Below are positions 32,716-33,918 of a DNA stretch of 64,000 nt, piece by piece. The DNA comes from Endozoicomonas ascidiicola. GTDB lineage: Bacteria > Pseudomonadota > Gammaproteobacteria > Pseudomonadales > Endozoicomonadaceae. The position numbers and the translations under genes were made by a program. The stretch is from positions 398,584-462,583 of the forward strand of contig NZ_LUTV01000006.1 in the NCBI RefSeq assembly GCF_001646945.1, in the 5' to 3' direction. Position 1 is the first letter of the stretch. Each line of letters begins with the position of its first letter. The notes beneath the pieces were generated by a model. The model did no database searches, was not told the DNA's origin, and saw nothing but the letters and a program-made list of their open reading frames with translations.

Positions 32716-33918
32716 TCACTGCTCCTTACATCGATTCAATTCAATGAAGGTAACGGAAAGCAAGCGGCTTTGACCATTTGTAAAATGGTCAAAGCACAAT
32801 TTCCCATCCTGAACTGAACCTTTAAGGATCAAGAAGTCAGAGTCACTCTCATCTAAGCCGGTCTGTTGTCTCAGATCAACATTATTATCAACGGAACATA
32901 GATAATGCTGAGCTACCCCAGCCTCCTGCTTTCTTTTAAGCGTTGTATACCAGTGATTTTTTATAGCATTGTCAGTCCTGCCAGGCATTTCTCTGGCGAG
33001 CTCAGCCCACCTTGTCCCACGCTTTGCAACAAAACCTGTAATCTGCTTGTCTTCTTCTGGAGACCAGTAGCCATGTTTAATTTCGCTAGAAAGCTGGCTT
33101 GTCCAGCGTTCACGGCACTGTTTACCTATCCTGCCCGGCACTTCCTGAGCGACTTTAGACCAACGACTGCCATGATTTTTGACTGCACTTCTTAAGCATT
33201 GGTCTTCTTCTGCAGTCCAACTACCAGTCTTTTTATAGATAGTACTTGTACTATCTATAACCCTATCAACTGATGAATCAAAATAACCACTTCCACTGCT
33301 CACAGTAATAGTAGAAGGCTCAATTTTTGGGACTTTGGGAGGCTTAACCTTCACTGTTTCAGTATCTGAATTACCATTTAATGCCCTTTGCCGTAATTCC
33401 AACTCTGTTCTGCTCGTTGAAAGAAAAGGGCGACAACTACTTGTATTCTTCCACTGACCATCCAACTCATTTTTGTCTTTATCGCTACCAATATCACTAT
33501 CACTGCCAGGCTCCCATATAAAACAAGGCGATTCTATATTCCGCAATGTGTACTCAGAGAACTGTTGCTTTCTCCTGTTTTGCACCCGAGCACTCAAACT
33601 ATGATGCCTTTCTTGAACAACACAGCTTTCATCTTGTTTTACATCCGATAAAGTCAGAATTTTTCTGCTGCTGATATTTTCAATATGAGCAGCTTTATTT
33701 CCAGAATCAAAGTACACATCCGGCTTGGCACAGAAGCCATAGTAGTTCGATAAACCATTAACAGGCTTAAACAAAGGCTGTATTTCTTGTGGGCTAACTA
33801 CTCCTAGTTCCCTATCGAAACATTTGAACTCTGAATATACTGAACCTGAAGAAACCTCCTGCGTACCTGCAGGAGCGGACTGGTTACAGGAACTTTCCAA
33901 TTTAGTATTAATATTCAT
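32716..33918 (-). CDS. R2R3-type Myb DNA-binding protein (eukaryote-like), candidate nucleomodulin
   Basis: A 400-residue protein with two tandem Myb/SANT repeats at about 231-277 and 283-329. The Trp pattern is perfect: 234, 253, 272 in the first repeat and 285, 304, 323 in the second, each 19 apart. The recognition helices read GRIGKQCRERW and PGRTDNAIKNHW, which match animal c-Myb repeats 2 and 3 as I recall them. The first 230 residues are Ser/Gln-rich, of low complexity and without a signal peptide; a Lys/Pro segment (VKVKPPKVPKIEP) precedes the repeats. Bacterial regulators do not normally use this domain. With a T3SS nearby, the likeliest role is a secreted protein acting on host chromatin, but this is inference. 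It lies 67 bases after the thiolase gene on the same strand. Confidence 0.85.
   Translation of the reverse strand: MNINTKLESSCNQSAPAGTQEVSSGSVYSEFKCFDRELGVVSPQEIQPLFKPVNGLSNYYGFCAKPDVYFDSGNKAAHIENISSRKILTLSDVKQDESCVVQERHHSLSARVQNRRKQQFSEYTLRNIESPCFIWEPGSDSDIGSDKDKNELDGQWKNTSSCRPFLSTSRTELELRQRALNGNSDTETVKVKPPKVPKIEPSTITVSSGSGYFDSSVDRVIDSTSTIYKKTGSWTAEEDQCLRSAVKNHGSRWSKVAQEVPGRIGKQCRERWTSQLSSEIKHGYWSPEEDKQITGFVAKRGTRWAELAREMPGRTDNAIKNHWYTTLKRKQEAGVAQHYLCSVDNNVDLRQQTGLDESDSDFLILKGSVQDGKLCFDHFTNGQSRLLSVTFIELNRCKEQ

Follow-up and report, generated by a model that had tools for sequence, protein, structure and literature searches.

The stretch of Endozoicomonas ascidiicola DNA analyzed here (64,000 nucleotides; contig NZ_LUTV01000006.1, positions 398,584 to 462,583; hereafter the window) carries a gene at 32716..33918 on its minus strand whose 400-amino acid product is an intact two-repeat R2R3-Myb of eukaryotic type, encoded on a bacterial chromosome. 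With a probability of roughly 0.55, this probably captured protein would be secreted and act as a nucleomodulin on MYB sites of the host. No account of it was found in the open-licence literature on Endozoicomonas with Myb or on Myb effectors.

The gene is defined by its open reading frame (ORF) and by Pfam, which places two complete and adjacent Myb repeats, both above the curated cut-off, in the R2R3 region (amino acids 232-330). Repeat R2 (amino acids 232-276; 33091..33225, minus strand) includes the reading helix GRIGKQCRERW and repeat R3 (amino acids 283-329; 32932..33072, minus strand) the reading helix GRTDNAIKNHWYTTLKR, each assigned from Pfam, alignment, and structure model. R2R3 is modelled at high confidence, its predicted fold matches Myb structure upon structure comparison, and the tails on both sides are mostly disordered. 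Pfam, model, and reading helices agree with the original prediction, which had described a c-Myb-like protein with two repeats. The N-terminal region (amino acids 1-226; 33241..33918, minus strand) has a largely low predicted local distance difference test (pLDDT) score, yields no Pfam domain, and contains a candidate export signal in its first 30 residues; the C-terminal tail (amino acids 333-400; 32719..32922, minus strand) is likewise of low confidence in the model. The protein falls in no NCBIfam family, and Rfam gave no match at gathering score over window positions 32000-35000. Two perfect inverted repeats with 13-nucleotide arms lie within the gene, one just before R2 (33233-33260) and one near the 3' end (32767-32795).

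Both repeats, their order, the reading helices, and the predicted fold are those of eukaryotic 3R/R2R3-Myb proteins such as c-Myb and plant MYB3R. From the c-Myb residues which we take to read the bases (K128, E132, N136, N179, K182, N183, and N186), the window protein retains K128, E132, N179, K182, and N183. It differs from c-Myb and MYB3R in having no R1, an R2 shorter by one residue, the exchanges N136S and N186Y, and unrelated flanks, as well as in its location on a bacterial chromosome. Only two repeats are detected by Pfam, and R1 was not found. A degenerate R1 was considered for amino acids 133-185, the helices of which are modelled at pLDDT 63-80 and are included when the model is aligned onto 1h88 (146 residues at 6.4 Å). 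It was rejected because the profile score is matched by shuffles: with a profile built from 243 proteins and applied to amino acids 1-228, 197 of the 281 shuffles scored, out of 500 made, were equally high.

Among the best 120 of 2522 matches to the protein and the best 120 of 2406 matches to the region, all relatives with a readable organism name are eukaryotic, namely plants, green algae, ciliates, diatoms, and a mite; many rows are nameless, and bacterial kin may be among these. One listed relative (P0005) comprises 515 amino acids with six Myb repeats and begins with what resembles a signal peptide. With two repeats and named kin that are eukaryotic, the window protein does not belong to the bacterial class of short single-repeat SANT/Myb proteins, and a position inside a bacterial SANT family, which the original prediction had named as the outcome that would speak against it, was not seen. 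Its statement that the fold is foreign to bacterial transcription factors is overstated, as the family search matches Bacillus subtilis and genome G067 encodes a divergent protein with two repeats. That protein, from another family of the same order (L033:1411-2637, minus strand), has 408 amino acids, in which DUF6824 is combined with two divergent Myb repeats; its gene adjoins that for a type I restriction R subunit, and the protein is perhaps another captured eukaryotic regulator. Parts of PMC10579323 describe Myb-like proteins in Legionella, Chlamydiota, and Clostridia that are endosymbionts of protists, likewise of eukaryote type and in eukaryote-associated bacteria; the likeness is one of description.

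In prokaryotes the gene is rare. PF00249 matches occur in 2 of 12 genomes of the genus, in 2 of 37 of the family, and in 2 of 194 genomes drawn from the order, the second of these being the G067 protein. In the phylum, 4 of 200 genomes match, with the window genome alone above the cut-off and the remaining three represented by weak single repeats in frames of 62-106 amino acids; the R2R3 query found 1 of 369 genomes of the class. A scan of 84,980 prokaryote species genomes in which the whole protein served as query gave 53 matching stretches, none of which was confirmed, and a profile scan matched 55, with four confirmed loci in 'Candidatus Endozoicomonas cretensis' and on three contigs of one metagenome-assembled genome; both scans require exact words (the second PGRIGKQC or RTDN[AS]IKN), so that diverged bacterial Mybs escape them. 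The three contigs (DYPS01, Desulfosporosinus) were set aside as ciliate-like contamination on account of split frames, a GC content of 28-33%, and a calpain gene. Internal stops are found there where relatives carry Gln or other residues, and this assembly seems to hold ciliate-like DNA, "ciliate" being our own reading. A viral carrier was rejected after a profile scan of viral contigs, in which none of 65 matched stretches was confirmed.

The donor was likely a eukaryote, and the capture would have taken place in an Endozoicomonas ancestor. Trees were calculated from 103 columns with 62 rows, and with 56 rows after removal of six long ones, 10 animal rows remaining after clustering at 82%. 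Neither bacterial Myb is placed with support in either tree, and the animal rows form one clade (97/90) that contains neither of them. Approximately unbiased (AU) tests reject nothing, with p values of 0.43 for the bacterial pair, 0.22 for animals plus window protein, 0.34 for animals plus E. cretensis, and 0.38 for animals plus both. Of the horizontal gain from an animal that had been proposed, the eukaryotic kinship stands on the named relatives; for the animal donor, the clade without the window protein and AU p values of 0.22-0.38 leave it, on these alignments, neither demonstrated nor rejected. Uptake of host genes by the genus is indicated by BIR-domain matches in 7 of its 12 genomes, with 12 in the window genome (contigs C13, C31, C35, and C36), the most of all twelve, together with the host-acquired inhibitor of apoptosis proteins (IAPs) which parts of PMC11521996 describe for Endozoicomonadaceae, nine of them for E. 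ascidiicola. Like the Myb, these IAPs are eukaryotic genes captured by the same bacterial family; unlike it, they are apoptosis inhibitors with Sec signals and a resolved donor group, as far as the parts of PMC11521996 concerned go.

Contamination or misassembly was discarded as an explanation, since the gene sits inside a 531-kb contig with bacterial genes on both sides, in an assembly of 6.13 Mb and 36 contigs that is 99.93% complete; in the E. cretensis record, too, bacterial genes share the contig with the Myb. The neighbours are a convergent SDR gene (31919..32710, plus strand) and, upstream on the same strand, a thiolase gene (33986..35188, minus strand). As originally noted, the Myb gene lies directly 3' of the latter; the gap is 67 bp and has no promoter-like match. 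This thiolase occurs in 5 of the 12 genus genomes, closest in the sister species G011 (98% identical), where the Myb segment is missing: DNA similarity ends at window position 32689 and restarts at 33992, the 1302 bases of 32690..33991 being represented by 75. From sctU to the flavin reductase gene, 13 of 14 compared proteins are present in G011 at 93-99.7% identity, and the absent one is the Myb. A recent mobile insertion was ruled out, as neither terminal repeats nor a target duplication were recognised in the repeat list at either end of the segment, and a DNA search of the window genome found short matches only and no second copy of the segment. The surrounding cluster combines meta-cleavage and beta-oxidation genes (4-hydroxy-2-oxovalerate aldolase, acetaldehyde dehydrogenase, thiolase, and acyl-CoA dehydrogenases), with a 2-oxopent-4-enoate hydratase match slightly under its cut-off. 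The steroid-degradation label given to it earlier is plausible but was not confirmed, because both models specific to steroids, HsaB and steroid thiolase, scored under their cut-offs.

With this arrangement, the captured Myb might instead be a regulator for domestic use, which would bind the bacterium's own DNA and tune the adjoining catabolic genes; we consider this rather improbable. The position behind the thiolase operon on the same strand, with no promoter-like match in between, would suit such a role, and MYB-type sites in the window are slightly more numerous than in shuffles (140 versus 109.7, standard deviation 9.95). However, their density (2.19/kb) is like that of the rest of the contig (2.07/kb in 1-400k) and is higher at the G011 locus, which has no Myb (2.63/kb); MYB-site density does not speak for bacterial targets. 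Moreover, the protein has no domain known from bacterial regulators in Pfam or NCBIfam.

In E. cretensis, contig OODV01000148.1 encodes DUF819 (97%), OsmC (81%), Myb, and then the last 26 residues of a Polyketide_cyc2 protein (88%), with identities given relative to genome G002 of a third species, in which the thiolase-SDR interval contains two SnoaL-like ORFs, DUF819, OsmC, and a Polyketide_cyc2 (SRPBCC-type) gene. The DNA match between E. cretensis and G002 stops at L005 2017 and restarts at 3772. Both Mybs are oriented alike, running with the thiolase/OsmC side and facing the Polyketide_cyc2/SDR side; the E. cretensis thiolase sits on another contig (L023), and the common interval was deduced through G002. 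Between window and E. cretensis, the thiolases are 88% identical and R2R3 is identical at 52 of 99 residues (52%), distributed as 28 of 30 in the reading helices and 24 of 69 in the remainder; 28 of the 52 identical residues have differing codons, 13 of these in the reading helices. Outside R2R3, credible similarity between the two Mybs was not found, and the flanks are unalignable. An N-terminal module common to the genus was not found either: the full protein, searched against the 12 genus genomes (E up to 1), gave, apart from its own sequence and R2R3 of E. cretensis, just three matches at chance level. In both bacterial Mybs, KNHW is followed by Tyr, while among 247 segments this position is Asn in 228, His in 2, and Tyr in 2 (one being the window protein), 15 having no pattern match.

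From these comparisons we infer one capture at the locus, followed by loss and fast divergence. A single acquisition, either with subsequent losses or with exchange among species, explains the presence of so rare a gene within the same few kilobases more simply than two would. Provided that both copies belong to one lineage, DNA reading was retained while the remainder changed quickly. That the captured gene is a passenger with little or no benefit, subject to drift and loss, appears just as improbable as the domestic regulator. Presence in only 2 of 12 genus genomes, absence from the sister species, interruption in E. cretensis, and unalignable flanks speak for it; against it, the 400-codon frame is intact, and the 28 identical helix residues, 13 of them with changed codons, look like constraint if both copies stem from a single lineage. 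Two independent captures, each from a different eukaryote and the window copy possibly from its animal host, would agree with unpaired trees and unalignable flanks and are less probable still, given that both copies occupy the same cluster interval as judged by neighbour genes, in the same orientation, and have in common the rare Tyr after KNHW.

The favoured reading, a secreted nucleomodulin, would proceed as follows. Export would probably proceed by the type III secretion system (T3SS), with the disordered N-terminus as signal; after entry into host nuclei, the protein would bind MYB sites of the YAACNG type in host chromatin. The window protein, without a clear acidic activation tail, may act there mainly as a competitor, and the E. 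cretensis version has an activator-like tail, though in an interrupted frame. T3SS genes are indeed close by, as had been pointed out: those for a CesT-type chaperone, SctN, YscO, HpaP/SctP, SctQ, SctR, SctT, and SctU occupy 21942..29006 (plus strand) and end 3.7 kb from the Myb gene. Residues 2-31 of the window protein consist to 57% of Ser/Thr/Asn/Gln/Pro/Gly, which is rank 5 among 285 ORFs (308 from the window together with 400 kb of its contig, less 23 with masked bases) and rank 2 if low Leu is also required, the other ORF being an HpaP/SctP-like T3SS protein; the N-terminal piece from E. cretensis shows the identical value. Following the acidic activation-domain rule given in parts of PMC10550315 (a 39-residue tile with charge ≤ -9 and W+F+Y+L ≥ 7, plus a diagonal term), four tiles of the E. 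cretensis Myb piece qualify. Elsewhere in the window, the ORFs at 50650-52395 (581 amino acids) and 39409-40113 (234 amino acids) have no Pfam or NCBIfam family; the former, with a Ser/Thr/Pro-rich N-terminus, is a possible candidate effector.

Several points weigh against this reading. The N-terminal composition is weak evidence for export, and proximity to the T3SS loses force because G011 shares the T3SS-catabolic neighbourhood and manages without the Myb gene. Two contact positions of c-Myb are altered in the window protein, by N136S and N186Y. It contains no activation-domain tile by the rule applied, and the rule is unspecific, with 13 of 308 background ORFs satisfying it. The E. cretensis frame is interrupted between N-terminal piece and R2, and the two bacterial copies are not joined in the trees, their pairing being found in 46% of 200 bootstrap trees with 56 rows and in 0% with 62 rows.

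TAL effectors of plant pathogens are injected, sequence-specific DNA binders acting on host genes. The role proposed for the window Myb is alike; fold and origin are unrelated, and the activation tail is missing by the rule used. What is new in the present analysis is the empty site, the relation to E. cretensis through neighbouring genes, and the conservation of the reading helices as opposed to the fast flanks. Going further, it is conceivable, albeit doubtful, that a lineage of animal symbionts has domesticated the whole DNA-reading domain of a eukaryotic transcription factor, using it as a fast-evolving, injected regulator of genes in the host. Such a protein would mimic host MYB or compete with it, and its place among catabolic genes would let its dose track host lipid or steroid supply. 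If the protein works as predicted, an effector from a bacterium would in its own right be a sequence-specific transcription factor of eukaryotic kind. The lineage concerned matters for corals, ascidians, and fish disease, and whether such symbionts rewrite host transcription would become directly testable, with the conserved helices beside fast flanks and the empty site in G011 as natural contrasts for experiments.
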